This document shows positions 2,696-30,985 of a stretch of 39,234 nucleotides of DNA, one piece after another; the stretch's first letter is position 1; every line of letters starts with the position of its first letter. This DNA is from a virus: the IMG/VR virus record IMGVR_UViG_3300032820_000036, positions 1 through 39,234 of that record. One strand, given 5' to 3'. Made by a program: the position numbers and the translations under genes. Under the pieces are notes generated by a model that saw only the letters and a program-made list of their open reading frames with translations, did no database searches and had not been told where the DNA came from.

Positions 2696-2710
2696 CGGGG
2701 GGGGCGAGAT

Positions 2711-6984: not shown

Positions 6985-6986
6985 CC

Positions 6987-9421: not shown

Positions 9422-9424
9422 GAC

Positions 9425-11334: not shown

Positions 11335-11350
11335 AACGAATCGATGTAAG

Positions 11351-11378
11351 GGAGCCGGGGCGGTGTCGTGCCGGTTCC
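11351..11378 (+). other. Hairpin after the capsid gene
   Basis: GGAGCCGG pairs with CCGGTTCC (7 Watson-Crick pairs and one G-U) around a 12-nt loop, in the 74-nt gap after the capsid stop. No T-run follows, so it is more likely an mRNA-stabilising or attenuating structure than a terminator. Confidence 0.4.
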
Positions 11379-11408
11379 TGATCATCACCATCAAGAAGGA
11401 GCCATTCA

Positions 11409-11984: not shown

Positions 11985-11998
11985 CGAGGTAGCGGCAT

Positions 11999-12559
11999 AT
12001 GCCCAGTGCTGTTGACATTTGCAACAGGGCGTTGAGCCGCGTGGGTGAAGCGCGGATCACTTCGTTGAGTGATGACTCCAAGCAGGCTAGGGCCTGCAAC
12101 GGAGCCTATACATTCATTCGTGACGAAGTGCTCCGCGCCCATCCGTGGAATTCGGCGATCTCGCGGGCCTCGATAGCGAAGCTCGCGGATGCCCCGGAGT
12201 TCGGATATGACGCGCAGTATCAATTGCCGTCCGATTGCCTGCGGGTGGTCGAGGTCTTCGATACGAAGCTACCCTGGGTAGTGGAGGGCCGAAGGATCCT
12301 TTGCGATGAGGGGAGCCCCCTCGAGTTGCGGTACGTCCGCAGGGAAGAGGATCCCAATACGATGGACTCGATATTGGTTTCGGCCATTGCGGCCAGGCTG
12401 GCCGTCGAGCTGTGCGAAGAGCTGACACAGAGCAATACGAAACGAAAGCTCGCCAATGCAGAATTCGATTTGATTATGTCTCAGGCTCGATCGGCAGACG
12501 GCCAGGAGCAGAGCCCGATGCCTTTCGAGGAGGATGACTGGATTAACGCGAGGAACTGA
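11999..12559 (+). CDS. Tail tubular protein A / adaptor (T7 gp11-like)
   Basis: A 186-residue protein. The opening ICNRALSRVGEARITSLSDD, followed by CNGAYTFIRDEVLRAHPWNS and YQLPSDCLRVVEVFD, is the standard pattern of T7 gp11 and related adaptors. It forms the ring joining the portal to the tail nozzle encoded next. GAGGTAGCGG precedes the ATG. Length is normal. Confidence 0.9.
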   Translation: MPSAVDICNRALSRVGEARITSLSDDSKQARACNGAYTFIRDEVLRAHPWNSAISRASIAKLADAPEFGYDAQYQLPSDCLRVVEVFDTKLPWVVEGRRILCDEGSPLELRYVRREEDPNTMDSILVSAIAARLAVELCEELTQSNTKRKLANAEFDLIMSQARSADGQEQSPMPFEEDDWINARN

Positions 12560-12561
12560 GC

Positions 12562-15500: not shown

Positions 15501-15720
15501 CTATGGACCCGATGATACTGAATCCAACATGGAAGAATTGCATTTTCGCGATTCTTACCATGCGATGAGCGAGGCTTTGCCTCTATTCGATGGAGATACA
15601 GAAGTCCTTCCCTGGCCCGAGGGCTACGAACAGATTGGCCGGATTGCACTCAAACATACCCTGCCCCTGCCGTGTACGATCACGGCGATCATGGCGCAGG
15701 TAGTAACCCAGGATAGGTGA
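12562..15720 (+). CDS. Tail tubular protein B / nozzle (T7 gp12-like) with inserted beta domains
   Basis: A 1052-residue protein from GTG 12562, with GAGGAACTGA upstream. Residues 1-95 (SFNAGELSPTLDGRVDIGKY; NFIPLVQGGARKRSGTRFV) and about 600-900 (AWGELNGYPRTVTFFEDRLW; WAGTRANPQTLWASK-like) match nozzle proteins. Between about 100 and 390 lie extra beta-rich domains: an FCCH-like module (AVVTAASHGFEDGDRINISG) and a module with ALAVGMTVSGTGIPAGATIA followed by a related segment. Members of this family are usually shorter, so the insertion adds surface domains. The protein forms the tail tube tip from which DNA exits. Confidence 0.88.
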   Translation: MSKASAIQTSFNAGELSPTLDGRVDIGKYASGCSILENFIPLVQGGARKRSGTRFVKEVKDSNNPSRLIPFEFNTDQAYVLEFAHSEIRVFRDGGPVTGSPHTIVSTSAATPVSVTVSDEGTPITAITQASPAVVTAASHGFEDGDRINISGITGVAELNDREFTVAGKTADQFALLDVTGTISEDTTQITDATCDVNANTSATMDDTEDLKVGQTVDGAFSDATCITTLATTVTMTSNAALAVGMTVSGTGIPAGATIASIPGGGTTFVLSAAATVASSPGTVSLEFNPIAAGTTVAAIDAGGTAFTLSAAALSDKDNVTLKFGGPWVSGGSVTGHRLLTNDELFLDGTGIDSIDGRFWTISRTGALTFTLDSSINPGEASTVGTAARIFKLASPYSSEALGSMQYAQSADVLYIAHPDYPPHKVTRTEHDAWTITEIVFDDPPFEPRNTDTDITVKVSTHDKEVGETVWLEQIGGVDSGSTDNPIFAQSMEGSHFKISELIPSNHGLWEAASDNIRYSGTPVIYIEDVQDGYTAYWENNVYRLRFIDGQSGTSAPVHDTGTESDGKWQWEFLHSGSGHGKIISASANGINAQVEIINPFPVSVVSTDDPYPEATHRWARGAWGELNGYPRTVTFFEDRLWWGGTRANPQTLWASKTSDYENHQIIDLDESALVLTINTDKVNVIEWINAGKVLVIGTAGGEFVCSAAVEAEALVPGNVRVVRHSTYGSKTKVLPQRVEQVLLFVQRAGRKMREFVYNSSVDSFVAPDMTVLAEHITRGGMTELAFQQEPNRLIWATLGNGNLICFTYERAQEVVAWHRHELGGEDVFVESIASIPHPNGDKDQLWLIVKRTVDGATKRYIEYMESDWDRFDEVDAAFFVDSGLSYDGDPTTTLTHLEHLEGETVTILADGATHPDQTVSDGQITLTRSCEKASVGLAYSSTLQTMRIEAGAADGTAQGKTKRFTNVVFRLDQTGSGLFYGPDDTESNMEELHFRDSYHAMSEALPLFDGDTEVLPWPEGYEQIGRIALKHTLPLPCTITAIMAQVVTQDR

Positions 15721-15725: not shown

Positions 15726-16361
15726 ATGGCTATCTCTTCCCCATACGCTTCAAGCACTACTAATTGGGCCGCCTCCCAGCAGGCTCTCGGACAAACCGCG
15801 CCGTCTGCGGCGTGGACGTCCGCACATCAAGCGTCTATCGGCGGCGGCGGCGGCGGCGGCGGCGGCATAGGTTCTGCTGCCGGGTGGGCCGGTGCCGCTA
15901 TGGCTGCGGCGTCGATATATTCCAGCATTAGCGGCTCGCTCATGTCTGCGAAGGCGATGAAGATGGAGGCGAGAGCGGCCCAGGCCGCTGCCGAGTACAA
16001 CGCATTGTTGGCCGAGATCAATGCTCGCGCTGAGATGAATCGACAGCGGCGTATTGCTCGCCGCGCCTTGTCTTCGCAGTTTACCCAGATGGCTGGGAAG
16101 AGCGGTGTGGTTGCTGAAGAGGGAGGCTGGCTCGAGGCTTTAGCCTGGAATGCTGGCGAGTACGAGAGGGGCGCAATGAACGCCTGGTACTCAGGAGAAC
16201 TAACGGCAGGGCTGGATCGTTCTCGCGGGGAGGTAGCCAAGAGTGTCGGCAAGGCGCGAGCAGCCGCCGAGATCACTTCCGGCGTAGGTAGAGCTGTTGG
16301 CTTTGGGGCTTCCCTGCTGATTGGTGGCGCTTACAAGACCATCGATGAAGTGTCGCCGTGA
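15726..16361 (+). CDS. Internal virion protein (T7 gp14-like position)
   Basis: A 211-residue alanine/glycine-rich protein with a nine-glycine run (38-46), a hydrophobic segment (about 47-75) and a long alpha-helical region rich in arginine and glutamate (about 75-120). The order gp12-like, this, helical protein, giant protein parallels the gp14-gp15-gp16 ejection proteins of T7, which leave the head and form a channel across the cell envelope. Function is inferred from order and composition. It contains one copy of a 30-bp repeat also found in the giant gene. Confidence 0.75.
   Translation: MAISSPYASSTTNWAASQQALGQTAPSAAWTSAHQASIGGGGGGGGGIGSAAGWAGAAMAAASIYSSISGSLMSAKAMKMEARAAQAAAEYNALLAEINARAEMNRQRRIARRALSSQFTQMAGKSGVVAEEGGWLEALAWNAGEYERGAMNAWYSGELTAGLDRSRGEVAKSVGKARAAAEITSGVGRAVGFGASLLIGGAYKTIDEVSP
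15840..15866 (+). repeat. (GGC)9 microsatellite in coding sequence
   Basis: Nine GGC triplets encode nine glycines. In-frame length changes by slippage would be tolerated. It runs into the 30-bp repeat. Confidence 0.9.
15860..15889 (+). repeat. 30-bp exact repeat, copy 1
   Basis: These 30 bases recur exactly at 24042-24071, in the same reading frame, encoding GGIGSAAGWA in both genes. Flanking bases differ. Confidence 0.9.
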
Positions 16362-17998
16362 AGATTCCCAGGATCGAGGCTGGCCCCGCAGAGTTCGGGA
16401 GACGTGCTGACCCTGGCGATATGGGGAGTGGTGCCGGTGCTCTTGCGAGTGGTCAAGCGGCTAAGGAACTTGGGCAAATTACACTTGCGCTATTTGAGCA
16501 AGAAATGTCTTCCAAAGTGGCGGCTGCTTCAGCGAGTGCTGGCAGTGAGTTGAACGATCTGCGCCTGGAAGTAGAGCAGGAGCCCGATCATCACAAGCGC
16601 AGTGAGTTGTATTCGACTGGATCGAAGAAGATCACCGATAAATTTCGCCAAGGTTTGATGTTCCCGAAGTACAAGAGTCTCTACGATTCTCGCATTTCAA
16701 AAACTCTCAATGGCAATCGCCTTAGCGTTGCCCAGAGTGTGCGCCAGTCACAGATCGACTCAAGTCGAGCGGATCGCAGGAGCTCCATCGAAAACTTTCA
16801 CGATCAGTACAAAAACACCATTGACGAATCAGTACGCAAAGACTTGCGTGACCAAATCCATGAGCAATGGGATGAGGGTGTAGAGGGTGGTTTGTGGACT
16901 GCGGATTATGCAGCGCAACAAAAGATCATTTCCGACAACCGATTTGAAACTGAACATCTCATCACCCAGAGCCAGATTGCTGCTGATGAAATCATGGACG
17001 AAGAATCGAACCCGAATAAGCGAGTGGCGCTAGCTCGCAAGAGGTACACGGGTGTAATGCGCGACCAGGTGGTGACTCGCTTGGAGCATCGAAACACTGA
17101 AGAGTTGAACGCTCAAGTGAAGGCGCACAATGTCCGGAAGAAGCAGTTGATCCTCCAGGCGTACAAGGAAGGTCCGGATAGGCTTACTCGAGAAGCCTTT
17201 ATGGAGATTGCAGCTCGCGAAAAGTTGCCGTCTGAAGTGATTTCTCCTGTTCTAACCGCGATAAAGTTGGCCGAAACGCGGGCCAACCCTTTGGAACTTT
17301 CGGAAGCAGAGGCGCTCAAGGCGCAGTTGTGGGAAACAAATAGCCAGCGTCTGTTTTTTCAGTTGATGGGAGAGGCTCAGAATTTTACGACTCGACCGCA
17401 TTTTCTCAGAAGGAATTTGTGGGCGGAATATGGAGCTCATATTGACGATAAGCTCTTGCAGAAACTTCTCGCTGAACAAGGCGAGGGGACTGCAAAGCTC
17501 GGCGTAGAATGGGCAAAACGGATTGAGCGCAAAATGGCCCAGTTGGGCCTCCCGGTAACTGCCGCACAGTATGCGGAGGAATCTGAGAAGGTTGCCGAAT
17601 CTGAAAATTTTCGAGCAAGAGCGTTGACCCACATTGAAGTTGCGACTGAGGCAAAAGGCTTGCCTCTCACGGAAACGGAAGTCCAAGGGATACTTGATGT
17701 TCTTGGCGATAAAATTGTGATAGATGAAGGACACATTTTTGATACAACGATTCGTCGTTACCAGGTCACGCCGGAAACGGAAGTTGACTGGCCCGATGAT
17801 GCTACTGAACAGCAAATACGCGATGTACACGGGCTTGGGAATCGGGATGATGTGGACGCCCTCGAACTAATCCGAAAGACTTTTGCAGAGATGGTATTTG
17901 GCAAATCCCTAATTCCTCTCCCTGAGCGGTACAAGGCGAGTCCGCCACAACAACCACAACGGACTGGCCCCGGCGGTACTGGCCGAAGCGGTCGATGA
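16358..17998 (+). CDS. Internal virion (ejection) protein, T7 gp15-like position
   Basis: A 546-residue, almost entirely helical, charged protein. It starts at GTG 16358, overlapping the upstream stop as GTGA. Heptad-like stretches lie at about 45-130 and 200-260, and the C-terminus is a proline/glycine tail (SPPQQPQRTGPGGTGRSGR). No catalytic motif is visible. Its place before the giant protein and its composition match internal core or ejection proteins. The start of the giant gene overlaps its stop as ATGA. Confidence 0.78.
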   Translation: MKIPRIEAGPAEFGRRADPGDMGSGAGALASGQAAKELGQITLALFEQEMSSKVAAASASAGSELNDLRLEVEQEPDHHKRSELYSTGSKKITDKFRQGLMFPKYKSLYDSRISKTLNGNRLSVAQSVRQSQIDSSRADRRSSIENFHDQYKNTIDESVRKDLRDQIHEQWDEGVEGGLWTADYAAQQKIISDNRFETEHLITQSQIAADEIMDEESNPNKRVALARKRYTGVMRDQVVTRLEHRNTEELNAQVKAHNVRKKQLILQAYKEGPDRLTREAFMEIAAREKLPSEVISPVLTAIKLAETRANPLELSEAEALKAQLWETNSQRLFFQLMGEAQNFTTRPHFLRRNLWAEYGAHIDDKLLQKLLAEQGEGTAKLGVEWAKRIERKMAQLGLPVTAAQYAEESEKVAESENFRARALTHIEVATEAKGLPLTETEVQGILDVLGDKIVIDEGHIFDTTIRRYQVTPETEVDWPDDATEQQIRDVHGLGNRDDVDALELIRKTFAEMVFGKSLIPLPERYKASPPQQPQRTGPGGTGRSGR

Positions 17999-20900
17999 GT
18001 TCCTCCCCGTACACAGATGAAGAAGTGCGCGCTGCTGGTGAGGCCGTGCGACTGCGTATTGCCGAAGAAGAGAAGGCAAAGGCGCGTAATCTCATTTCTG
18101 CGCGTTCTCGAGAGGAAGCGCCAAATCGGTTTGAGGCGCTCCAGTTGGAATCGCGTACCGGGGTTCCAGTAGATACGGTAGAGCGGAACCTCCCCGAAGT
18201 TCGATCGATGGATACGGCGAACGGTCTGGATCCCAATCGCGTGGCTACCAGTCCTGCTACGTCCAATTTGCTTTCCGGGCCTCTGGCTCCGATGGCGATG
18301 AAGGAGATCGCCGAGTCCCGTACTAAGAATGTACGTCCGACACTCGCTCCACTTTGGAGCCAGCCCTCGGAAGTTACGAGCCCTGTTGCCCAAGCTGGAT
18401 ATGGCGATGTGGCTTCGACTTCGCTCGATCGCGGGTCGTACATCGTTGACGTTGGTTTGTACGGCTCCCGTATTTTGAATGGCACGGCCAGCCCGATGGA
18501 TCGGATTCGCTTTGCGGAGTTGCGCCGCCAGGGGGCTCCCGTGGTTCCCGATTTACCAGGGTACGCGGATGACGTACTAGGAATGCTTGTCGAGCAGGCT
18601 CCAATTATGGGGAGCGTCCTTAGCTATGCCGGAGTAGGAGCTGCTACTGGGGCTGCCATTGGTGCGACGGCGTTTGGTGCGGGGGCCGGTCCAGGCGCGC
18701 TTCTTGGTGCCGGGGGCGGAACCTTTGTTGGCGCTTTCAACCTCGAGGCTGGGAATGCCCTGGCGGAAGTGATGGATGCCGCTGATGAGCTGAAGGCCAG
18801 CGAAGGCATTGAGATATCGGAGGATGTTCTCCACTGGACTGCGAGGTTTGTTGGACTCGTCAATGCTGGCATCGAGGTTACCGGGTGGGGGATAGTTTCT
18901 CGCGTTTTCGGATTAAGCGCCCTGGTGAAGGGACTTTCCAGAGATGCGGTAAAGCAAATACTCAAGTCGAAAACACTTCGACCCCATCTGAAAAAACTTG
19001 CAAAGCGTGTAGCCACGGCGGGGGCCGTTGGGTCAGTAGAGGAGTTCAGCCAGGAAGCTGTCAATGTAGCCGCTACCCATTTTATCATTTCTAACGCGAA
19101 GGGCGAAGATCTCGTACAAAAGCCGTCACGGGAGACTTGGGAAAGACTTTTCAAGGCGTGGGCTGCTGGCTTTATCGTCTCATCCTTTTATGGCGCTCCT
19201 GCTCATGCGGTTATGGCGGGTATTGAAAACGTATCGGCGAATAGGATTGCAAGGAGAAAGGAGGGGATCCTCGACAAGCTGGTTGAGTTTGTCGGCAACA
19301 GTAATTTGCCAAAAGCTGATGCGGCCAGGTTCAAGGAGTACCTGCAAAAGGTGATCGAGGAAGGTGGCGGCGATCCCAATATGTACATCGATGCGAGATC
19401 CGTGGCTGCCTATTTCGAGGCAAACGAAATCGAACTAAGCGAACTTGCGGAAGCGATCCCCGATGTGTTTGCCCAGTTGCCGGAAGCTCTTGCTGCTGGC
19501 GTTGATCTCGTAATTCCGATAGCCGACTACGCCACCTACCTAAGCGAGCACCATGAGGGTCTGAAGGCTCACGTTCGGCACGGGCTCAACGCTCCGAGCC
19601 CAGCGGAGGTGGGCGAGAACGAGGCCCAGGCTGAGTCGGATCTCGGGGAGGCTCTGACTAATCTTGACGAGGAAGAGGCGGCTGCGGCCAGCGCGACCCC
19701 TGGGGAGAGAATAGCCCAGGCGTACCTCCAGAAACTTGTCAGCGAGGGCGTCTACAGTCCCGCGGATGCCCACCAGCATTCTCAGGTGCTGGGGGCATTC
19801 ATGGAGGAACGCATTCAACGGAGGATCCGCGAAGAGTCCGACCGCCTTGGGAGGGAGTTGACTTCCGAAGAGGTCGAGGCAATTACCGAAAGGCTGGTGG
19901 CTCAGGCCGAGGCGGTTGCGGTGGAGGGCTGGGGAGCGTTGGATGTCCCAGCCCGTCCCACTTTCGAGCAGGCCCTGGAGCGTATCGATATGAATACGCT
20001 TCTGGATGAGATCCGATCGGGCGTTACCCCCGAGGTCAAGGGGATGTCGAGAACCCCGATTCTCAATGAGATCCGTCGCCAGGGCGGCGTTGCGACTGTT
20101 CATCAGACTGCCGGTGGATGGGTCCAGAGCCCTCTGGCTGCCGAGCTGGAGGCTCTTGGTGTTACCCCGAAGACCAACCCCGGTTTATTTCGGGATCCGC
20201 GCAACCGCGCAAAGTGGTCACAGGCGAAACGGCAGGAGGTTCCAGCCCCCAAGGCTGACTTCGATTCTTTCGACTGGACCGATAACGAGTTGCTTCGCGG
20301 CCCAACCGATGATTTCGGACGGCCTACAGACTTCGATGATTTATACGATGCGATAAGGGAAGAGCTCGCCGGGACTCCTCGCCGCACCGAAGCGGAGTCC
20401 CAGAAGATCGTCGATTTCCAGATCCCTCGCGAGCAACTCAGCGCGATCCTCGACCAGCTCGGCGTTGATCTCGAGACAACTACGAACGAAGAAATCATCG
20501 AGATGCTGCGGCAGCAGTTCCAGGTGGATGAGGCAGTCGAAGCTGACGCCCCTGGAGAGCTAGACGATGGCAGCGAGTTGTTCCAAAAGGCGAAGCTGGA
20601 AGACCAGATTCCTGGGCTAAAGGGGATACTTCCTTACCTTTCGGAGTCTGAAAAGGCGAAGCTCCGAAAAGATACCGGGCGCAGATTGGTTTCCATTTTT
20701 CAGGAGATGCCGGATGCAACAGAGCTAGCCAGCTTGGCATTCGCTGGCAGGGCGAAACGCGGATGGTATCGCGATAGCGCCAAGGCGTTGGTGGATATTT
20801 TTGGCATCGATGACGCGCCCAGGTTCGCCGCCCTCTTGGCAGCATTGTCGCCCCAAACCTCTGTTGAGGTGAATGCGCTGAATGCGTTGAATGTTTGGGT

Positions 20901-23900
20901 CAACTGGGTAAAGGCTGGGAGGCCGACTGGCAAGAAGGCGATTCTCCGCGTCATGGGTGATTCGGTCCTTGGAGATAAGGGCATCGAAAGCGTATTGGGA
21001 GCATGGCGGAATAATTCAATACGGGCGCTGTCATCGAAAGACCCCGGCTCCCTGGTTATCTCTGGCCCTAAAGTCAATTCCTTCATGCTGAATTTGAGGG
21101 GATTCGTTGACGAAGTCACAAACGATGCGTGGATGGCAAATGTCTTAGGGGTGGATCAAGAAATTTTCAGCGGCGCTATCAATGTTGCAGGGACAGATGC
21201 CGGTAAGGGTCCAGGGTATCTGGCTGCATCTGCGTTGATACGGAAGGCTGCGGACATTGTTTCTCGTAGGACGGGCGAGAATTGGAGCCCCTCAGAGGTT
21301 CAAGAGACTGTGTGGTCTTGGGCCAAGGCTCTTCTGGAGCAGAGGCTTTCCAAGGATGAGGCTCGCAGCGCGCTGAAGCTGGTTCGCGAGCAGGGTGGCC
21401 CTGACGTATTGCGGTTAGCCGATACGCCGGATTTTGCGGTACTCTTTGCAAATGGCATCTACAGGAAAATCCTTGAAGCCGGTGGGCTCGGAGAAGCCGC
21501 AGAGTTTGCAGCTCGCAGTGGACAGGCTGCTCGACGTGCTCGAGGAAGAGGGCGAGGCCCTGGCGGGCAAACGCCTGGAATTGCAAAAGATCGTTTTGAG
21601 GCCGATCTCCGAAGGGCCGCGAAAAGGCTAGACCGTCTAGCGGAAGCTAGGGCGGCTGCCAAAGCAGCGAAGACCCTCGAGCAGGCTGCGGTTCTGCGAG
21701 TTGATAAGCCCTCTCTCCCTGGCGTGTGGGTAGATTTCTCTGGCGCTGGCACGGTCGAGGCTGTGCTGGAAGGCGTCGAGGGCGTGGGTGCCACCGAGTA
21801 CAAGCCCGAGATCATTGCCCAGTACAACGAGGCCCACGGGACCAACTACGAGGCCGCCGATGTAAACGAGGTGGACCCGGCAGACATTGCCGCAGCCAAG
21901 CCCACTCTCTACGAAGCGAGCCCCGTCTGTAAGAATTTCTCCAAGGCGAAGGCACTCGCCCAGGCAGACGAGCTCGATCGGAAGTCTGCGGAGACTGTCG
22001 CCAACGTAATCCGCGTAGCGGAACCGCCTTTGGTTGTGGTCGAGAACGTGCCGAAGTATGCCGATACGGCGCTGTTCAAACTCATCACCGACGCCTTGGA
22101 TGAGAAGGGCTATACCTGGGAAGTTGTTATTCACGATGCTGCTGATTACGGGGCGGTTCAAACTCGTAAGCGGATGATCTTGCGCGCGGTGAAGGACGGA
22201 AAGCTGCCAGCTCGCCCAAAGGAGCAGGCTCCAGGCGATTGGTTTACTGCGGTCGAGGATTTGCTGGACGCAGCCCCGGATGCCACGATACCCCCGGTAG
22301 AGATGGGGCGTCTGCGCGAGATGGAATCACGCGGGAAGCTGGATTTCGACAAGCCGATCATAACTATGGGCGGGTCTGCATTTCGCGGAAGTTGGGCCGC
22401 ATCCAATGCCGGCGGTCCATCCCCAACGCTCAAGGCTTCCAACGAGGTTCCCCGGATCATTATGCCGGATGGGCGTGTAAAGCGCGTCACTCCCAGGATG
22501 ATGGCGCGTCTCATGGGGTTGCCCGATTCGTATCCCGTGCCAGAAAACAAAAGGCTTGCGAAGACTGTCCTTGGCAACGGTGTCCACGGTGCCACTACGC
22601 GGGCTTTGATCCAGCCCCTGGTGGATCAAGTGACGCCCCAGGCTGCGACCACCCTCGAGCAGTCCCCAGTCCCCGATGCGGAGCGCCCTCTTGGTGGCGT
22701 CTTCTATTCCGCCCTGGGCCGTGCGCTTCGCACTTCCAAGCAGCGAAAGATGACTGTGCAGCAGCTCCGCGGTTTGCTCAAAAAGGAGCGCGTGAAGGAA
22801 GAGGAGATTGTCTGGACTGGCCTCGACGAATTTCTCGAGGGTCTGGATCCCAAGGACAAGATTGATCTCGGCCTCCTGCTGGACAATATAAGCCTGGTCC
22901 AGGTCGAAGAGGTTGTGCTGGGTAAGTCGAAAATGGATGAGCTCCCAGATGAAAGAGCGTTGTGGGACGATTTGAATGATCCTGTCGGGTGGAAGATGCC
23001 AGATTTGGACTCTGCCGAGGCTCGCGATGTGGACGCGCCTGCGCCGTACAAAGATATAGTCGGAGAATCCGACGGAGAAGAATTCAAGTATCGAGTTTAC
23101 CTCTGGGAGGAGGGCCAGGATGTCTGGGTCAGGAGATCGCCTGATGACCCAGGCCAGACCGCGCTCTTAGAGATTGTGCCAGATGCGGAGTTTCCAGGGA
23201 CTCTTATTGACGCGGCGGTACAAACGATACTGAAAGATTTAGAATCTCGATTAAGTCCAGAACGGGAAAAGTTCGTTGGGGAACCCAAGTTCGACTCCCC
23301 TTCCTATCAACTCCCCGGCGGCAAGGACTATCGGGAGACGTTGATTACGTTGCCGCCCATCCATCACACTGCCGATATCGAGGCGCGAATTGACAGCCTG
23401 GAAAAGGGTAAGGAGTTCGCAGAAGGTGCGGACTGGGACGAGATGGATGCAGAGGTGCAGCGCCTAAAGGCATTGAGAAAACAGGACCGGCTATTCACCG
23501 GCGGCCACATGGGCGGTGTCGCCCCCAACATCCTGGTACACGTTCGCTGGAATGTTCGCACTGGACCCAACGGCGAGAAGATCCTTTTCATCGAAGAGAT
23601 CCAAGATGATTGGGCGAAGGCAGGGCGGAAGAGTGGGTATGCTGGGGCTTTTCCGCAGGAGGTGGTTGATGCTGCCGTTGCTGGAGGCATGACAGAAGAA
23701 GCGGCTGTGGCGGATGTTCGCCACCTCATGGAGGAACCGCTAGACGCGGAAGGCAGGCCGACAATGGACGAGTGGGCTCGGCTAATTAGTGCCACCGAGT
23801 ACAGCTCTATCGACCTGAACGAAGTTTTCCACGATCGCCGGGACAGAGGCGTCCCCGATCGCCCCTTCAAAACGTCCGGTGCCAGCACCATGCTTGCCTT

Positions 23901-26900
23901 CAAGCGGATGGTCGCCTACGCGGCAAAGAACGGTTTCGACTCCGTGGCTTGGACAACCGGCAAGGTTCAGGTGGAACGCTACGAGAGCGCGCTGCGCCAG
24001 TCGGTGGATGAGATCGAGTGGGAGCCGGGCCGGGTATCCGCCGGCGGCATAGGTTCTGCTGCCGGGTGGGCGCGTCCGAGCCATGTGAGTTTTATAAAGG
24101 ATGGCGAAGTCGTTCTGGACATGGACGTTGTAACCGAGACTGGGCTGGTGCTTACGACTTCGACGGGTGGCGAGGATGCAATCGGTGGACCCATCGAAGC
24201 GGTGGTGGGCAAGGATATCGCCTCGCAGATCCTCGACTCTGAGGAGGGCTCCGTCTCCGAAGAAAACCTCACGATCGGCGGCAAGGGATTTGAGGATATC
24301 TATGACAAGACCCTGGTGAAGGGCGCGAACAAACTAGGCAAGCCTTTCGGTACGAAGGTTGGGCGAATTGATGTGGGTACCGCACCAGGCCGATACGTTC
24401 CTGAAGGTCTTGACCAAACCTTCAGATACGAAGTCCACCTCGAGTCGGAACATGGGGACACGTTTTACGATTCTTACGAGACGATGGATGAAGCCCAATT
24501 CGCTGCGGCGTCCTACAGGACTGATATGCCAGAAGGACAGTGGTCTGTAATCGACTCTGAAAGTACAAAGGAAGGCCAGGGGACTCCCGTCCATAATCTC
24601 CCCATCACCGACAAGCTCCGGGCCAGCGTTGCGGCGGAGGGGTTCTCGTTGTTCCAGGCCGCAGCCGGAGGACCGCGAGGGCAGATCCGCTTCGATGCCG
24701 AGATGGAAAATATCGTCATACGATTCACCGAGGCCAGGGATTTGAGTACCGGGCTCCATGAGCTGGCGCATCTGTTCCTCGAGATGATAATGCAGGACGT
24801 GACACTCTCTGAATTGAATCGGGGTGGAGCCGCAGGCGCAGAACTTGCCAAGGATATGGAGGCCATTCTCAACTTCCTTGGGGTTTCGTCACTCGAGGAA
24901 ATTGAGACAGAGCACCATGAGAAGTGGGCCAGGGCGTTTGAGGCATACCTTCGCGAAGGGAAAGCGCCTTCAGTCGAATTGCAGTCTGCCTTTAAGCGGT
25001 TCAAGGCGTGGCTCATACAGATTTACAAAAGCCTTCGCCAGTTGAATGTCGAGCTGAGCCCGGAGATTCGCGAGGTTTTCGACCGGATGCTGGCGAGCGA
25101 GGAGCAGATCGCCCAGGCCAGGGATGCCGATATTCGGATGCAGCCCAGATTTGAAAGCGCGGAAGTTGCCGGCATGACTGACGGGGAGTTCGCAGAATAC
25201 GAAGCGTCTTACGATCGGTGGATGTCGCCGGCGCAGGAGCGGACATTGCGGGCCGCCTTGGCAGAGAAGAAGCGCGAAGGGACGAAGGTCTGGAAGCAGA
25301 ACTACGCGAAGATGCGGGCCGAGGTTGAGGCCGATATCAATTCCCAACCCGTCTACCGCCTTCGCCACTGGCTCCAACATGGGAAGTTTCTAGACGAAGA
25401 AACCCCAGAGGATCTCGAGCACGTTCGCCTGGATCGAGACATTCTGAAGAAACGCTACGGCAGGGCAATCTTGAAAGCGTTGGGAGGCGCTGGCAAGTAC
25501 GGGATGTGGCAGAAGGACGGGATCGGCCCGGATGCGATGGCCGATCTATTTGGTTTTGTTTCGGGAGATGCCCTGGTTCGCGCCTTGCAGCAATCGATCA
25601 ATCGCGACCAGGCCATCGATGAAGAAACGTCTCGCCGTATGAAGGAAGTCTACGGCGATATGCTGAATGACGGCTCGCTCGCGGAGCTCGCGCTTGATGA
25701 ATTGGAGAGTGACGAGAAGGGCAATTTCCTTTCGCGGGAACTGCGAGTGCTCGCCAAAAAGGCAGGAGCCCCTGGTACTCCGCAGGCCGTCTCCAAGAAG
25801 ATCGCCAAGAGGATGATCGCCCAGAAGCGGATCCGCGATTTGCGTGCTGACATTTTCCGGCGCGCGGAGCAGCGAGCAGCTCGGGAGGTTCTGGATGCCG
25901 TCGATGCTCAGAACTGGCAGGAGGCCCACGCCGCTTCCATGCGCCAGTTGCTCAGTCACTTCTTGGTGCTCGAGGCTACCCAACGTAAAGAGCAAACCAC
26001 GAAGTGGCATCTCTACCTACGCACGTTTGACGATAAGAAAAAGATCGAGAGGATTGGCAAGGCGGGAGGGGACCACCTCCAGCAGATATTCAATCTTCTA
26101 GACCGCTTCGATTTCCGAAAGATCAGCAACAAGGAAGCTGACCGCCGTCAGCGCCTGGCCGAATGGATCACGGAGAAAGAAGCAGAAGACGAGACGGCTG
26201 AATATGTGATCGACGATCGTCTGAGAGACGAGGCGTTCCGATCCCCCTGGCGGAACCTTACGGTCGAAGAGCTAGAGAGTGTTGTCGATGCTGTGAAGAA
26301 CATCGAGCACATGGCGATGCTCAAAAACAAATTGCTTCTCGCAAAGGACAAACGCGAGTTCGATGCCAAGGCCGAGCTCGCCGCCGAGACAATCGAAAGA
26401 AACCGCCGAAGCGCAAAGCCCATCCCGAAAGAGCACCATCTCAAGGAAACGGCCAAAGACCTAGCTGGCAGTTACTTTGCCAGCCACCGAAAGATTGCCA
26501 GCTTGGTGGAAGAAATGGATGGTCGCGAACTGGGTGGTCCGCTGTTCGACATGATCCTTCGCCCTATGGATGAGCAGTCATCGTGGGAAACCGAGGAGCG
26601 CGTAAAGTCTGCCGAGCGGCTCCATGAGTTGATCAAGCTCTACACCGATATCCCGCTGTTTGGATCAGAGAAGGCCAAGCAAGTAGCGACGAAGTTGACC
26701 CTGGGCTTTGTCGATCGAGTTCGCCCAGAGTTGTCTTTGCCGAAGCTGGTCCCAGGAACTGCCGATATTCATTTGTCAAAGATTGGCCGAATCGTGGCCG
26801 TGCTCAATACAGGCAACGCTGGGAATATGCAGCGGTTGAGGGATGGCTACGGGTGGTCCCCCGAAGATATCCAGGCGATTCGCAATAGCCTCTCCAAGGA

Positions 26901-28446
26901 GGATATGGATTTCGTCCAGGGCGTTTGGGATTTCATCGATGAATACTGGGAGCTGGTGGCCGCCAAGCAAAAGCGCGTTACTGGTGTGGCTCCCAAGAGG
27001 GTCACGCGCCAGCCGTTTACAACCATACACGGGACTTATGCTGGCGGGTATTTCCCGATCGCGGACGATCCAAATCAGACCGCCAGGGCTTACGGGAATG
27101 TCCTTGCCGAGACGGCCAAAGAAACTATGAGAGGTTTTCGGGCTGCGTCTACTACCCTTCGCGGCCATACGAAGGCACGCGCAGACAAGGTTATGGGCAA
27201 GAAACTGCGTCTCGATTTCGGGGTAATCTTTGAGCACGTCAACGGCGTTATCCACGATCTCGCTTGGCATGAGTGGCTCATCGATACGAATCGCCTCCTG
27301 CGTGACGAGAGAATTTCACAGGCCATCATCCAGGGATACGGCAACCCGGTCTATCGCAACTTGATCAATGCCGTGAGGGATATCGCTGCGGGCGATGTCG
27401 CTGCTGAGAAGGGCTGGGAGCAAGCAGTCAACTGGCTCCGCACCGGGGGGTCCATTGCCGCGATGGCACACAACGCGATGACGGCAGCCCTTCAGCCTTT
27501 CGGTATTTTTCAATCGTGGCAGATGATAGGGGTGGAGTGGGTTGCCAAGGGAATAGGGAAATGGTGGCGCGGCCCGGAGCAGATTCAAGGTACTGTCGAG
27601 TGGATCCATTCGGTGGACTCGTTTATGAAGAATCGCGCGCTAACGATGCAGCGCGAAATCCGCGAAGTCCAGCTATCAGCTCGCGAGGGCGGCGGGCCGA
27701 GCAGGTTCAAGGACAGTCTTTTCTATTTTATTGTCAAGACTCAGATGCTTGTCGATATTCCGACGTGGCTTGGCGCTTACGAGAAAGAGATGGAGATCGG
27801 CTCAGGTGACCACGATCGCGCAGTGGCGATGGCTAGGCGCACCGTGAAGGACACCCAGGGGAGCGGCGAGATATCGGATCTGTCGGCTATTCAACGCGGT
27901 AGTCCGTTGCTAAAAGCATGGACAGCGTTCTATCACTTCTTCAATACTACGATGAACCTCACCGCCCAGTCTTATCGCTCGACCGATTTCAAGCAGCCCC
28001 TCGAGGTGGGGAGGTTCGCCGCGGATATGGTTCTTCTCTATTCGTTTCCCGCCTTCCTCTCCGATCTGATGAGAAGAGCCATTATGGATAACTGGGATGA
28101 AGACGAGAGTTGGGGCGAGATGGTCATAAGATCCCACGCTGGATATGCGTTGGGCACACTGGTTGGCCCTCGAGAATTAAGCGGCATCGCCTCTGGCTTT
28201 ACCGATTACGAGGGGCCAGCGGGCACTCGATTCTTTTCGGCTATCTCGAAGCTCTCGGTTCAGGTTGGTCAGGGCGAGGTGGATGCGGCGTCCATCCGAG
28301 CTCTTAATGCAGCAGGCGGGATCGTGTTTCATTATCCGGCTATCTCGTTCCAGAGGATCGTCGAAGGAGCCCTCGCTATTTCAGCAGGGGAAACGCAAAA
28401 TCCGGTTCGGTTACTGACCGGGCCGACGAGGGAACAGAGGCAATGA
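17995..28446 (+). CDS. Giant polyvalent virion protein (3483 aa) with embedded C5 methyltransferase and zincin motif
   Basis: One uninterrupted frame covering 27% of the window, in the T7 gp16-like position. Visible regions: a glycine/alanine-rich hydrophobic segment (about 194-250); a possible HhH-GPD-like region (about 873-1165; LSPQTS 951-956, SGPKVNSF 1023-1030, TNDAWMANVLG 1042-1052); a C5 cytosine methyltransferase (about 1243-1545; DFSGAG, SPVCKNFS with C1312, ENV 1350-1352, QTRKRM 1389-1394, GNGV 1527-1530); an uncharacterised domain common in polyvalent proteins (about 1773-2180; HVRWNVRTGPNGEKILFIEE); a zincin motif HELAH (2255-2259) with HEKWARAFEAYL about 50 residues on; long helical regions; and a hydrophobic C-terminal region with NAMTAALQPFGIFQSW. 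Such proteins are thought to be ejected with DNA and act in the new host. Both enzyme roles are inferred from motifs. Confidence 0.88.
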   Translation: MSSSPYTDEEVRAAGEAVRLRIAEEEKAKARNLISARSREEAPNRFEALQLESRTGVPVDTVERNLPEVRSMDTANGLDPNRVATSPATSNLLSGPLAPMAMKEIAESRTKNVRPTLAPLWSQPSEVTSPVAQAGYGDVASTSLDRGSYIVDVGLYGSRILNGTASPMDRIRFAELRRQGAPVVPDLPGYADDVLGMLVEQAPIMGSVLSYAGVGAATGAAIGATAFGAGAGPGALLGAGGGTFVGAFNLEAGNALAEVMDAADELKASEGIEISEDVLHWTARFVGLVNAGIEVTGWGIVSRVFGLSALVKGLSRDAVKQILKSKTLRPHLKKLAKRVATAGAVGSVEEFSQEAVNVAATHFIISNAKGEDLVQKPSRETWERLFKAWAAGFIVSSFYGAPAHAVMAGIENVSANRIARRKEGILDKLVEFVGNSNLPKADAARFKEYLQKVIEEGGGDPNMYIDARSVAAYFEANEIELSELAEAIPDVFAQLPEALAAGVDLVIPIADYATYLSEHHEGLKAHVRHGLNAPSPAEVGENEAQAESDLGEALTNLDEEEAAAASATPGERIAQAYLQKLVSEGVYSPADAHQHSQVLGAFMEERIQRRIREESDRLGRELTSEEVEAITERLVAQAEAVAVEGWGALDVPARPTFEQALERIDMNTLLDEIRSGVTPEVKGMSRTPILNEIRRQGGVATVHQTAGGWVQSPLAAELEALGVTPKTNPGLFRDPRNRAKWSQAKRQEVPAPKADFDSFDWTDNELLRGPTDDFGRPTDFDDLYDAIREELAGTPRRTEAESQKIVDFQIPREQLSAILDQLGVDLETTTNEEIIEMLRQQFQVDEAVEADAPGELDDGSELFQKAKLEDQIPGLKGILPYLSESEKAKLRKDTGRRLVSIFQEMPDATELASLAFAGRAKRGWYRDSAKALVDIFGIDDAPRFAALLAALSPQTSVEVNALNALNVWVNWVKAGRPTGKKAILRVMGDSVLGDKGIESVLGAWRNNSIRALSSKDPGSLVISGPKVNSFMLNLRGFVDEVTNDAWMANVLGVDQEIFSGAINVAGTDAGKGPGYLAASALIRKAADIVSRRTGENWSPSEVQETVWSWAKALLEQRLSKDEARSALKLVREQGGPDVLRLADTPDFAVLFANGIYRKILEAGGLGEAAEFAARSGQAARRARGRGRGPGGQTPGIAKDRFEADLRRAAKRLDRLAEARAAAKAAKTLEQAAVLRVDKPSLPGVWVDFSGAGTVEAVLEGVEGVGATEYKPEIIAQYNEAHGTNYEAADVNEVDPADIAAAKPTLYEASPVCKNFSKAKALAQADELDRKSAETVANVIRVAEPPLVVVENVPKYADTALFKLITDALDEKGYTWEVVIHDAADYGAVQTRKRMILRAVKDGKLPARPKEQAPGDWFTAVEDLLDAAPDATIPPVEMGRLREMESRGKLDFDKPIITMGGSAFRGSWAASNAGGPSPTLKASNEVPRIIMPDGRVKRVTPRMMARLMGLPDSYPVPENKRLAKTVLGNGVHGATTRALIQPLVDQVTPQAATTLEQSPVPDAERPLGGVFYSALGRALRTSKQRKMTVQQLRGLLKKERVKEEEIVWTGLDEFLEGLDPKDKIDLGLLLDNISLVQVEEVVLGKSKMDELPDERALWDDLNDPVGWKMPDLDSAEARDVDAPAPYKDIVGESDGEEFKYRVYLWEEGQDVWVRRSPDDPGQTALLEIVPDAEFPGTLIDAAVQTILKDLESRLSPEREKFVGEPKFDSPSYQLPGGKDYRETLITLPPIHHTADIEARIDSLEKGKEFAEGADWDEMDAEVQRLKALRKQDRLFTGGHMGGVAPNILVHVRWNVRTGPNGEKILFIEEIQDDWAKAGRKSGYAGAFPQEVVDAAVAGGMTEEAAVADVRHLMEEPLDAEGRPTMDEWARLISATEYSSIDLNEVFHDRRDRGVPDRPFKTSGASTMLAFKRMVAYAAKNGFDSVAWTTGKVQVERYESALRQSVDEIEWEPGRVSAGGIGSAAGWARPSHVSFIKDGEVVLDMDVVTETGLVLTTSTGGEDAIGGPIEAVVGKDIASQILDSEEGSVSEENLTIGGKGFEDIYDKTLVKGANKLGKPFGTKVGRIDVGTAPGRYVPEGLDQTFRYEVHLESEHGDTFYDSYETMDEAQFAAASYRTDMPEGQWSVIDSESTKEGQGTPVHNLPITDKLRASVAAEGFSLFQAAAGGPRGQIRFDAEMENIVIRFTEARDLSTGLHELAHLFLEMIMQDVTLSELNRGGAAGAELAKDMEAILNFLGVSSLEEIETEHHEKWARAFEAYLREGKAPSVELQSAFKRFKAWLIQIYKSLRQLNVELSPEIREVFDRMLASEEQIAQARDADIRMQPRFESAEVAGMTDGEFAEYEASYDRWMSPAQERTLRAALAEKKREGTKVWKQNYAKMRAEVEADINSQPVYRLRHWLQHGKFLDEETPEDLEHVRLDRDILKKRYGRAILKALGGAGKYGMWQKDGIGPDAMADLFGFVSGDALVRALQQSINRDQAIDEETSRRMKEVYGDMLNDGSLAELALDELESDEKGNFLSRELRVLAKKAGAPGTPQAVSKKIAKRMIAQKRIRDLRADIFRRAEQRAAREVLDAVDAQNWQEAHAASMRQLLSHFLVLEATQRKEQTTKWHLYLRTFDDKKKIERIGKAGGDHLQQIFNLLDRFDFRKISNKEADRRQRLAEWITEKEAEDETAEYVIDDRLRDEAFRSPWRNLTVEELESVVDAVKNIEHMAMLKNKLLLAKDKREFDAKAELAAETIERNRRSAKPIPKEHHLKETAKDLAGSYFASHRKIASLVEEMDGRELGGPLFDMILRPMDEQSSWETEERVKSAERLHELIKLYTDIPLFGSEKAKQVATKLTLGFVDRVRPELSLPKLVPGTADIHLSKIGRIVAVLNTGNAGNMQRLRDGYGWSPEDIQAIRNSLSKEDMDFVQGVWDFIDEYWELVAAKQKRVTGVAPKRVTRQPFTTIHGTYAGGYFPIADDPNQTARAYGNVLAETAKETMRGFRAASTTLRGHTKARADKVMGKKLRLDFGVIFEHVNGVIHDLAWHEWLIDTNRLLRDERISQAIIQGYGNPVYRNLINAVRDIAAGDVAAEKGWEQAVNWLRTGGSIAAMAHNAMTAALQPFGIFQSWQMIGVEWVAKGIGKWWRGPEQIQGTVEWIHSVDSFMKNRALTMQREIREVQLSAREGGGPSRFKDSLFYFIVKTQMLVDIPTWLGAYEKEMEIGSGDHDRAVAMARRTVKDTQGSGEISDLSAIQRGSPLLKAWTAFYHFFNTTMNLTAQSYRSTDFKQPLEVGRFAADMVLLYSFPAFLSDLMRRAIMDNWDEDESWGEMVIRSHAGYALGTLVGPRELSGIASGFTDYEGPAGTRFFSAISKLSVQVGQGEVDAASIRALNAAGGIVFHYPAISFQRIVEGALAISAGETQNPVRLLTGPTREQRQ
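24042..24071 (+). repeat. 30-bp exact repeat, copy 2
   Basis: Identical to 15860-15889 and in the same frame (GGIGSAAGWA, residues 2017-2026 of the giant protein). It sits inside a region otherwise made of charged beta-type sequence, where this glycine/alanine segment looks out of place. Confidence 0.9.
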
Positions 28447-30974
28447 CAATCACCTCAAGCCAAATGAGGACGGACCCGGTTGTCGGGACCGGATCCGAGA
28501 AGGACTTCACCGTACCCTTTCGCTTCCTAGCGAAGGAAGACCTGACTGTAATTCTCAGGGAGGGGGATTCCGATACCATCCAGGTGCTCGATACTAACTA
28601 CACAGTGAGTGCTGCTGGCGTATCGAGCGGTGGTACGGTCACCTTCGTTGTAGCTCCCACTTCGTTGCAGAAGGTGATCGTCATAAACGACCCCGCTCTT
28701 ATCCAGGGTACAGATTACGTTAGCGGTGGCACGTTTAGCGCAGAATCCCATGAAACTGCGCTCGACAAGTTAACTGTCCAGCAGCAACGCACTAGGGACT
28801 TTGTCGATCGGTCGATGTATCTGAAGGATGGAGACGTTGACGGGTCTGGCGGGTTCGATACTCGAGGAAATCAAATCACACTACCGGCTACTCCGGTTGG
28901 ATCGTCAGACGCTACTTCCAAATCCTATGTGGATTCTGAGATTTCATCGAGGATCTTGGCTGGAGCTGGTGCTTATCCTGTCAGCGATTCTGCGGTGGTC
29001 GCAACGAAGCCTTCCGGATCTGATCTCACAGCCAGGACGTTGGCCGATCGATTCGGCGACTCTCTCAGCATTCTCGACTTCGGAGTGACTGGCGGGGCAG
29101 ATGATACCCTCGCGATTCAGGACGCGATTGACCGGACGGCCCTCGCTGGCATGGGGCTGTACGTCCCGCCTGGTACGTTTATCGTTACCAACCTAGTAAT
29201 CAAAACGAACATGAGAATGTTCGGCGAGGGCACGATCAAGAGAAAGGACGCCGGAAGCCTTCTCTTGTTTAGTGCATCTACTGTGAATTCATTTTCCATC
29301 GAAGGCATTACAATCGATGGAAACAAGTCAGGAGCGCCGGCATCCACGCACGCAATATCTATCGGTGCATCGAGTTATAAGTTTACGCTCGACAGACTGA
29401 CCATCATAAACGGTGACCATAATGGGATAGCCGTTATCAACTCTGATGATCGAGATCAGAAAACCCAAAGCTATATTCGCAATTGCAGAATTCGAGATTG
29501 CGATGCGATCGGAATTGAAATCGAAGCCTGTAGCGATCTGACCGTTTCCGGCAATTCGATTTCGGGAACTGGCGGGTATGGAATATCGCTTATCGGACCC
29601 ATTGTCGGCCTATCGGATTTGGTAACCATTGAAAGTAATTCAGTGGAGGATTCCGGTTCTTTTGGGATTTATATCCAGTGGGTTATTGACGTTATCACTC
29701 CAATTTACTCAGTCACAAATCTGAACCTATCGAATAATAAGGTTAGAAATTCCTTTTACGATGGCATCTGGGTCGCTTCCGAAGACTCCACAATATCGGG
29801 AAACTTATCATCGGATAACGGTACCGGCGGGACAGAATTTTACGATCACGGCTTTTCGATCGCGGGGAACCGACTGACATTTTCTGGTAACACAGCCCTG
29901 GGGAATCCCGGTTCAGGTGTTGTTACCAAGGATTGCGGTTTCCTTACCGTAACAGCAAACGTCGTTAAGGGTAATGGGTATAACGGCATCCAGTTCAACG
30001 CAACGAATAGCGTGGTAGCGGATGGAAATATCGTATCTGGCAACTGGACAAACTCCACTTCTGGTTACGCTGCAAATCTTAGAGCTGGAATCCTTGTTCA
30101 CAAAAACGGGTACGGAAGTGCGGACGGTGTGTATTCCAACGATACGGAAGACATAACAATCACCAACAACGATGTGAAGTCTGGCACTGCCCAGGCTTAC
30201 GGAGTTTCCGTTATCGGGGCTACCACTGATAGAGTGATGATTTCTGACAACAACCTCGCATCCTCTGGAGTTACGCGGGCGATCAATATCGAAGCCAACA
30301 ATGGGACGTTCTCCTGCAATGGGAATCTCGATCCTTCCGGGTCTTCGCTTACGGCAGCCGCAGCACTCGTTGTCGATCAAAATTCCCGCTTCGCTGTTGT
30401 GAGCGGAAACACTGGTATCACATCTATCAAAACGGACACCGAGAAATACGAGCGTGGCCGACAGCTAACCCTTCTTTTCACGGGCACGCCTACTATCACA
30501 AGCGGTAGCAATCTGAAGTTGAACGGAGATCTGGCTGTTGGTTCGGATGACTCCACCCTAACGCTGGCAAGCGAGGCTGGAAATTGGTACGAGGTTTCCA
30601 GAATGGTCCCAGCCGCATTTGGCTCGACCGGAGAAACGTACTTTCAGTCACCACAGCAGACCATCTCTCCTGCGGATGATGCTTCAATCGCTCACGGACT
30701 CAGCTCGCTCCCTAGAATCGTGACTGCTCATCTTGTTTGTTTGACGGCAGAGCACGGCTATGCAATCGGCGACGAGATAGTGGTACCAACGGGTATCTAT
30801 CACAACGATACGGCGATAACCGATTACCATACTGGCTTTTTCTATGGTGCGAATGCTACCCATGTTTTTTATGTGGCAGGAGCTAGCCACACTTATATTT
30901 TGCACAAGACCACAGGGGCTGGTTCTACCACTACCCATGCTTATTGGCGTCTTGTGTTGCGAGCCTGGACGTAG
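28443..30974 (+). CDS. Tailspike 1: anchor domain plus right-handed beta-helix
   Basis: An 843-residue protein overlapping the giant gene by ATGA. Residues 1-160 form a T7 gp17-like virion-attachment domain (DYVSGGTFSAESHETALDKL; TVQQQRTRDFVDRS). Then ILDFGVTGGADDTLAIQDAI and GLYVPPGTFIV start a pectate-lyase-type beta-helix (about 205-640) with repeated N-x-I/V-S-G-N turns. A C-terminal domain (about 690-843) follows, with HGLSSLPRIVTAHLVC. It recognises, and may degrade, host surface polysaccharide. No catalytic residues can be assigned by eye. The first 230 residues are paralogous to the next gene product. Confidence 0.88.
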   Translation: MTITSSQMRTDPVVGTGSEKDFTVPFRFLAKEDLTVILREGDSDTIQVLDTNYTVSAAGVSSGGTVTFVVAPTSLQKVIVINDPALIQGTDYVSGGTFSAESHETALDKLTVQQQRTRDFVDRSMYLKDGDVDGSGGFDTRGNQITLPATPVGSSDATSKSYVDSEISSRILAGAGAYPVSDSAVVATKPSGSDLTARTLADRFGDSLSILDFGVTGGADDTLAIQDAIDRTALAGMGLYVPPGTFIVTNLVIKTNMRMFGEGTIKRKDAGSLLLFSASTVNSFSIEGITIDGNKSGAPASTHAISIGASSYKFTLDRLTIINGDHNGIAVINSDDRDQKTQSYIRNCRIRDCDAIGIEIEACSDLTVSGNSISGTGGYGISLIGPIVGLSDLVTIESNSVEDSGSFGIYIQWVIDVITPIYSVTNLNLSNNKVRNSFYDGIWVASEDSTISGNLSSDNGTGGTEFYDHGFSIAGNRLTFSGNTALGNPGSGVVTKDCGFLTVTANVVKGNGYNGIQFNATNSVVADGNIVSGNWTNSTSGYAANLRAGILVHKNGYGSADGVYSNDTEDITITNNDVKSGTAQAYGVSVIGATTDRVMISDNNLASSGVTRAINIEANNGTFSCNGNLDPSGSSLTAAAALVVDQNSRFAVVSGNTGITSIKTDTEKYERGRQLTLLFTGTPTITSGSNLKLNGDLAVGSDDSTLTLASEAGNWYEVSRMVPAAFGSTGETYFQSPQQTISPADDASIAHGLSSLPRIVTAHLVCLTAEHGYAIGDEIVVPTGIYHNDTAITDYHTGFFYGANATHVFYVAGASHTYILHKTTGAGSTTTHAYWRLVLRAWT

Positions 30975-30985
30975 GAGAACCTGAA

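Follow-up and report, generated by a model that had tools for sequence, protein, structure and literature searches.

The virus record IMGVR_UViG_3300032820_000036 (39,234 bases, G+C 56.6%; we call this whole stretch the window) carries on its plus strand an open reading frame (ORF) of 3483 codons (17995..28446) that begins with ATG and contains no stop. Its product is a giant protein on a Bbp10-type scaffold, matched by phrog_9880 (E = 0, best stretch residues 2209-3472), that holds several unrelated enzyme-like domains. A first-pass annotation had read the ORF as a polyvalent virion protein in the T7 gp16 position, with a C5 methyltransferase, a possible glycosylase-like region, a zincin motif and long helical parts; the ORF is real, and this anatomy proved largely right, with a correction to the helical parts.

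Matches to PHROGs give the gene order around it. Genes for a terminase large subunit (from 4796), a portal/head-tail adaptor (7457), a protease-like protein (9425) and the major head protein (10462) are followed by those for a T7 gp11-like tail protein (11999..12559, +; phrog_394, E 1.2e-57), a T7 gp12-like tail protein (12562..15720, +; phrog_376, E 5.1e-211), a 211-residue protein with no family match (15726..16361, +), a 546-residue protein with no solid family match (16358..17998, +), the giant protein, and two fibre proteins, the first of which has a T7-gp17-like N-terminus (28443..30974, +; phrog_1640, E 2.7e-26). The order in T7 is gp11-gp12-gp14-gp15-gp16-gp17, so that the 211- and 546-residue proteins stand at the gp14 and gp15 positions and the giant ORF takes the place of gp16. 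The likeness to gp16 is one of position, with no sequence homology seen: unlike T7 gp16, the giant protein has no transglycosylase domain that we could find, with no match to SLT (lytic transglycosylase) in it or in its 546-residue neighbour.

Two conserved parts frame the protein (all domain coordinates given here are on the plus strand). The N-terminal scaffold (residues 1-859, 17995..20571) has a Gly/Ala-rich hydrophobic stretch at about residues 208-253 and a weak LPD22 match at residues 47-95 (E 0.0094, below the cut-off; the same domain in the N-terminus of Bordetella phage BPP-1 Bbp10 gives E 3.5e-25), and the C-terminal scaffold (residues 2461-3483, 25375..28446) is Bbp10-like by tblastn and by slice profiles. 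From the zincin domain onward, the last ~1270 residues are homologous to Bbp10. With the C-terminal 1281 residues as query, tblastn matched 43 of 50,697 phage records, 37 of them over at least 80% of the query; the matches include Caulobacter phage Jess A (36%) and BPP-1 Bbp10 (35% identity over 98% of the query), and also reach Cobetia, Pseudomonas, Xanthomonas, Vibrio, Nostoc and Microcystis phages. Like the giant protein, Bbp10 and its Rauchvirus relatives (phrog_9880) have the N2 slice, the zincin and the C-terminal scaffold. Unlike it, Bbp10 is 2052 residues long and holds, between N2 (end 588) and the zincin (start 771), a PBECR1 RNase (residues 643-729) and neither DUF7178 nor a methyltransferase.

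Between these parts lies a bay of variable content. We turned ten slices of the giant protein into profiles and ran them over the translated ORFs of 109 loci (L001 excluded). The N2, zincin and C3 slices were found together in 23 proteins, a set that includes the window's own, with limits placed by hand, and two near-duplicate pairs of equal lengths (L075/L076 and L093/L094). In these, the bay from the end of N2 to the start of the zincin ranged from 183 to 1877 residues (mean 990, standard deviation [SD] 419), and the part from the zincin start to the end of C3 from 1220 to 1428 (mean 1266, SD 46). The bay lengths are biased upwards because most loci were fetched via cargo domains; in six annotated phages fetched via the C-terminus (L103-L108) they ran from 183 to 951 residues. 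One relative, L047, has scaffold and DUF7178 in common with the window (38% over residues 1-1226, 52% over 2205-3481) and lacks both the methyltransferase and the GNAT-like part. In another, L002, whose 5' end is missing, the methyltransferase is 68% identical and the scaffold just 37%. From these two comparisons it follows that the methyltransferase was gained or lost independently of the scaffold. The cargo of the giant protein is modular, and occupies a variable bay between the conserved N-terminal part and the zincin.

The first cargo domain (residues about 880-1225, 20632..21669) matches Pfam DUF7178 over residues 922-1108 (E 7e-8) and is predicted to have the fold of HhH-GPD DNA glycosylases. 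An AlphaFold2 model of residues 856-1245, made with 48 sequences, reached a predicted local distance difference test (pLDDT) score of 92.8 and a predicted template modelling score of 0.90. Compared with solved structures by VIA-align, it matched MjOgg best (3knt; Z 10.0, 179 residues, root-mean-square deviation [rmsd] 3.5), followed by, among others, TmOgg (9.6), SsOgg (9.4), AGOG (7.8), MutY (up to 7.5) and NTHL1 (6.8). For helical proteins, Z-scores under about 13 can reflect a common arrangement; we consider the fold match credible because DNA glycosylases fill every one of the first 23 rows and are followed, in row 24, by the phage PaMx11 protein PUGT (8z2n, Z 6.0). The first row that is neither had Z 6.0 and rmsd 7.5.

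A putative catalytic element of this domain, SGPK(1026)VNSF...VTND(1044)AWMA (21061..21138), is evident in the alignment columns, with 18 residues from Lys to Asp. Both the Lys1026 and the Asp1044 columns are invariant in the 48-sequence alignment, and G-x-K with Asp 18 residues later occurs in 80 of 80 relatives (in L102 without the usual PKVxSF string) and in three of four loci from genome contigs, L111 being missed by the pattern used. The spacing is also 18 in 27 endonuclease III-type sequences. We take the Lys/Asp pair to be the counterpart of the catalytic residues of Nth and Ogg2, the correspondence to the HhH-GPD catalytic pair being one of motif and spacing, not of superposed residues. 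Only when DUF7178 was aligned with one Ogg2-like sequence by itself did Gly-Pro-Lys fall on Gly-Pro-Lys, and then without significance; a PDB sequence search with the DUF7178 profile returned weak unrelated hits only, and the Ogg-HhH Pfam family had no match in the window. DUF7178 thus resembles the Ogg2-type 8-oxoguanine DNA glycosylases (MjOgg, SsOgg) and endonuclease III in predicted fold and in the G-x-K...D element, with the endonuclease III spacing, and differs from them in showing no significant sequence similarity and in being embedded in, or adjoining, phage virion proteins.

At least 106 relatives of DUF7178 are present in viral contigs, 80 of which we fetched; a tblastn search with residues 880-1242 against the 50,697 phage records found none at E 1e-5. 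Four genome contigs carry the domain as well ('MAG' in three titles, 'uncultured' in one). More distant members occur in PHROGs (phrog_3842, E 2.4e-9) and Pfam, and proteins of Synechococcus phage S-CBP42 and Mycobacterium phage Myrna are among the weak matches to viral structures, so that cultured phages may well have members of the wider family. Among the 80 loci, DUF7178 lies in an ORF of at least 1400 residues in 56, and gp11/gp12-like genes are found within the fetched stretch in 40. In L084 it forms a separate 615-residue ORF between a 605-residue ORF and a 1016-residue 'internal virion protein' (phrog_6651), surrounded by gp11, gp12 and fibre genes, an arrangement that ties DUF7178 to the ejection complex without fusion.

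The second cargo, the C5 METHYLTRANSFERASE (a C5-cytosine DNA methyltransferase domain, residues about 1246-1545, 21730..22629), matches Pfam DNA_methylase over residues 1248-1538 (E 9.7e-23, above the cut-off), and its best solved relative is HhaI (E 1.8e-8). Motifs I, VI, VIII, IX and X and the catalytic Cys are present. Related domains were found at 20 loci. In an alignment of 12 sequences, the window's and 11 non-redundant relatives 46-72% identical to it, the Cys (Cys1312), the Glu of ENV (Glu1350), both Arg of QxRxR (Arg1391 and Arg1393) and two further elements, RMMARLMG and GNG, do not vary (12/12). The clade lies inside the Bbp10 scaffold in the window, L002, L004 and L008, in other large ORFs in L012, L013 and L019, and also in ORFs of 300-996 residues, some of them truncated. 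In three of the four small-ORF loci scanned (L007, L011, L015), a terminase large subunit gene lies directly downstream or one ORF off; in the fourth, L017, the ORF after the methyltransferase matched nothing. We considered a coupled writer/eraser pair, the methyltransferase acting with a 5-methylcytosine glycosylase. None of the 20 + 80 ORFs compared (several of them truncated) has both the methyltransferase and DUF7178, which occur together in the window alone, so that obligate coupling is unlikely.

The third cargo, our M1/M2 polyvalent domain (residues about 1571-2215, 22705..24639), is probably GNAT acetyltransferase-like, judging from a structure model. Counterparts of residues 1565-2215 are found at 16 loci (M1 in 15, M2 in 13), with conserved elements resembling EEIQSDWHQxGRKxGY and AWTxG. 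Most of the 50 VIA-align rows for the model are named acetyltransferases (NatD, NatA, RimI, GCN5, Naa50 and others; best Z 9.1). The remainder include four ICL2 rows, the KacTA and TacT2 toxin complexes, a 'bacterial toxin' and a 'transcriptional regulator', which presumably have a GNAT-type fold too; Foldseek gave no significant hit for the model. In L082 the domain stands directly after an ART-PolyVal domain, and passages of the survey of polyvalent proteins by Iyer et al. (2017; PMC5512222) describe an ART domain as the typical neighbour of polyvalent GNAT. The segment perhaps lies within what the first-pass annotation meant by long helical parts; our low-confidence model makes it mixed alpha/beta. 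Structure prediction of slices, which that annotation had put forward as a check, covered two of them and gave a confident, HhH-GPD-like model for residues 856-1245 and a poor, tentatively GNAT-like one for 1565-2215.

Next comes the zincin-like metallopeptidase domain (residues about 2227-2460, 24673..25374), with HELAH at 2255-2259. HExxH is kept in 31 of 31 aligned sequences, those of the window and BPP-1 included, and scanning for a pattern from the zincin region brought up a single locus. Bbp10 residues 700-1000 served among the seeds of a published survey of CLCA-type metalloproteases (PMC3650047).

A short motif marks the boundaries of these domains. L-[FE]-Q stands at all four cargo/zincin junctions of the giant protein: LFQ862 (20578..20586) and LEQ1228 (21676..21684), each 18 residues before its domain (DUF7178 and the methyltransferase, respectively), LEQ1554 (22654..22662), 17 residues before the GNAT-like domain, and LFQ2219 (24649..24657), 8 residues before the zincin. 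Elsewhere in the protein there is one LFQ/LEQ, at 1114, and [LF]xQ totals 23. The motif was first spotted by eye and then tested, on 85 junctions from the window and from 52 giants kept of 71 by a 5-mer redundancy filter. Domain starts were taken as the starts of profile matches, those of the window being set by hand (880, 1246, 1571 and 2227). All 85 junctions entered a shuffle test, and the 73 left after dropping 12 that shared a 6-mer entered a ranking of gapped residue pairs, which was made on the same data that had suggested the motif. With expectations taken from other windows of the same proteins, L-x-Q ranks first of 1600 pairs (36 junctions versus 13.4 expected, binomial p 1.9e-9), F-Q second and P-R third (22 versus 7.2). 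In the shuffle test, [LF]xQ was present within 25 residues at 47 of the 85 junctions, versus 17.5 (SD 3.4) in within-window shuffles, a count that none of 5000 shuffles reached. With the zincin junctions excluded it was present at 26 of 57, versus 10.5 (again 0/5000), and the reversed motif was at expectation (16 versus 17.7). By domain, with the number of 5000 shuffles that reached the count in brackets, the motif precedes 14 of 39 DUF7178 (8), 8 of 11 M1 (0), 4 of 7 methyltransferase (33) and 21 of 28 zincin (0) junctions.

At DUF7178 junctions the motif was found in 12 of 19 T7-type/scaffold proteins versus 1 of 19 other giants (Fisher p 1.8e-4, window excluded). Nine further phages, fetched later, have it before the zincin in nine of nine cases; these phages fall into only some six groups, of which the Xanthomonas and Microcystis phages, at least, are closely related to L108 and L109 of the first set, so the replication is weaker than the number sounds. 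When the distance is widened to 40 residues in proteins with at least two junctions, the motif is still missed before DUF7178 in L033, L082, L085 and L086, before the zincin in L056, L086 and L093, and before M1 in L035, L074 and L082. We rejected it as a universal rule of polyvalent proteins: the ART, InPase, LPD38 and M1 domains of L082 and the ART domain of L035 stand without it, as do all but one of the 19 other giants at DUF7178. An ART-domain scan based on L082 and meant as a wider test returned two loci, one being L082's own contig, and was left unused. In BPP-1 Bbp10 (L103), LFQ at 587 and FYQ at 766 flank the PBECR1 RNase domain. In a giant of another phage type (L035, ORF 6701-14236), strings resembling LF[SA]N[RK]R recur close to where its own domains meet (FFSNRRAV, LFSNRRAV, LFANKRPL), as if every phage type had its own junction code.

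We propose that the giant protein is a large podovirus ejection protein in the gp16 position, in which a delivery scaffold (the N-terminal ~860 residues, the zincin and a ~1020-residue C-terminus) carries a swappable bay of HhH-GPD-like DUF7178, C5 methyltransferase and probable GNAT, and which is delivered and then cut to free its cargo; we give this reading a probability of roughly 65%. It builds on the ORF and its position, the homology of the scaffold, the variability of the bay, the identities of the domains by sequence or fold, the conserved catalytic-type residues and the statistical junction motif; from these we infer packaging, entry, cleavage, catalysis and targets. The protein would be packaged in the head or core and enter the cell with the leading DNA, after which its own zincin or a phage head protease would cut at the [LF]xQ junctions. 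By modifying cytosines, the freed methyltransferase would guard the incoming genome from restriction, a role proposed for DarB with adenine; the glycosylase-like enzyme may excise or remodel particular bases on host or entering DNA, and the GNAT domain may acetylate some host target. Entry with the DNA had been suggested by the first-pass annotation as well, and draws its support from context: the gp16 position, the Bbp10 homology and the separate DUF7178 ORF in the internal-virion-protein block of L084. That annotation's further idea, that the protein may modify or edit DNA before any phage gene is expressed, is a conjecture. The same annotation had called for a search for cleavage between domains; this yielded the motif at four junctions and its enrichment in relatives, from which cutting itself can be surmised.

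Several results weigh against this proposal. Foldseek with the DUF7178 model gave no PDB hit below 0.001, hhalign of DUF7178 with Nth and Ogg2 sets was not significant (P 0.12-0.58), and in L114, the only bacterial Ogg2-like sequence that we fetched, Lys and Asp are spaced by 19, not 18. Motif IV of the methyltransferase, with its invariant Cys, is SPVC in 11 of 12 sequences and SPEC in one, not Pro-Cys, a trait of this methyltransferase family. The M1/M2 model is poor (pLDDT 55.5), and [LF]xQ is missing within 25 residues at 38 of the 85 junctions. Nor is cleavage a rule: Iyer et al. (2017; PMC5512222) state that the virion RNA polymerase of N4, which has a zincin too, goes into the particle unprocessed; and the BPP-1 paper (eLife 2013), in its part on virion proteins, identifies just the two most abundant ones, neither of them Bbp10.

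The enrichment of [LF]xQ suggests polyprotein-like processing, with the motif as a putative protease site. Precedents are found in passages of two papers: the head protease of SPN3US cuts head and ejection proteins at a short motif (PMC10052503), and the processing of P1 DdrB is proposed to be by DdrB's own zincin (PMC5512222). Besides the zincin, the window has the protease-like gene between portal and major head protein genes (9425..10258, +), which matches phrog_458 'protease' (E 6.3e-6) and the unannotated family phrog_3742 (E 3.8e-35) and gave no match in Pfam. In its fullest form the idea would be that the giant is a polyprotein-like precursor, that one of these two proteases cuts after the Gln of [LF]xQ and frees glycosylase, C5 methyltransferase and acetyltransferase as separate first-strike enzymes, that the motif is a general processing code of Bbp10-type phages, and that cargo is swapped between phages as cassettes bounded by these sites; we offer it tentatively, and think it somewhat more apt to fail than to hold.

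The motif could instead be a structural signature of linkers, or belong to a cap at the N-terminus of each domain, an explanation that we rate as falling only a little short of an even chance. Linkers are rich in Gln, Pro and Gly, P-R is enriched at the junctions too, and the zincin-side motif, which in many sequences has PRG or ARG after it, may belong to the zincin domain. However, [LF]xQ stands before four unrelated domains, shuffles fail to reach its count even without the zincin junctions, its reversal is not enriched, and it marks DUF7178 in T7-type/scaffold giants and not in other giants.

As to DUF7178, the domain might be a base-hypermodifying enzyme of HhH-GPD fold, or a catalytically dead DNA-binding module, and not excise bases at all. 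Its structural match to PUGT, a phage DNA-base glycinyltransferase, speaks for the former, but the 8-oxoguanine glycosylases score clearly higher (Z 9.4-10.0 versus 6.0), the invariant Lys/Asp pair is placed as in bifunctional glycosylases, and the window genes that were scanned (part of the ORFs of a record that may be incomplete) included none named for thymine hypermodification; we regard these possibilities as unlikely, though to be taken seriously.

It seems rather improbable that the enzymes act in the producer cell, with a late-made protein methylating or processing progeny DNA before or during packaging and the gp16-like part being structural only. The giant gene does sit among late genes, and the terminase genes beside the methyltransferase in L007, L011 and L015 would link that clade to packaging and not to ejection; yet an enzyme of the packaging stage would need no fusion, and the methyltransferase is fused into the Bbp10 scaffold at four loci and into other large ORFs at three. 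That the giant is just another large polyvalent protein, whose accumulated domains have partly decayed and no longer work as enzymes, as its great length, variable bay and Val-Cys in place of Pro-Cys in motif IV might suggest, is very improbable given a 10.4 kb open frame and catalytic-type residues that are invariant in the methyltransferase (12/12), DUF7178 (80/80) and the zincin (31/31).

Among known systems, the giant protein belongs with the polyvalent proteins described by Iyer et al. (2017; PMC5512222), as sections of that paper define the class: a multidomain protein encoded among virion and late genes, in which a zincin is joined to disparate enzyme domains, GNAT and zincin both being described there. 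In the window, too, a zincin and several unrelated enzyme-like domains share one late-gene polypeptide. The methyltransferases in the same sections are mostly of the adenine N6 type and nearly always fused to a superfamily 2 (SF2) helicase, and the main text does not contain 'glycosylase' or 'LFQ' and has 'cytosine' once, in the reference list. P1 DarB, as told in a passage of that paper, is a virion methyltransferase, as the giant protein is proposed to be, and is reported to protect phage DNA in cis; unlike DarB-type methylase-helicases, with their adenine N6 enzyme and SF2 helicase, the giant protein has a C5 enzyme and matched no helicase family. Literature searches on DUF7178 (which found nothing), on virion methyltransferases and on glycosylases in virion proteins listed no paper that reports such a combination, a weak negative since subscription journals and bioRxiv preprints were mostly outside their coverage. 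What is new here is the modular cargo, a fold for DUF7178 and the junction motif, the last two being the strongest.

Other features of the window lie outside the giant gene. Two consecutive fibre genes (28443-30974 and 30944-33037) each begin with a T7-gp17-like N-terminal domain (phrog_1640). A gene at 1319-2242 (-) matches phrog_887, queuine tRNA-ribosyltransferase (E 2e-26), which we take to be possibly a DpdA-like 7-deazaguanine DNA-modification enzyme, so the phage may modify DNA further. At 36618-37895 (-) lies a second 'DNA methyltransferase' gene (phrog_1008, E 5.4e-30), with no Pfam match at E 0.01 and no S-adenosylmethionine-binding motif evident by eye, and at 35932-36621 (-) a gene whose product has a Sigma70 region 4 domain (Pfam E 6.9e-6). 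Of the 31 PADLOC rows for the window, the 25 displayed are all methyltransferase models; L047 gave none. The window has no exact terminal direct repeat of up to 300 bases, and megablast of positions 18000-39000 against the phage records matched nothing.

If our reading is right, it would give a function to DUF7178, a Pfam family so far without one and common among uncultured phages, and the set of activities that phages may deliver with their DNA would grow by a glycosylase fold and a cytosine methylase. The [LF]xQ sequence rule would also make the release of domains from polyvalent proteins directly testable.

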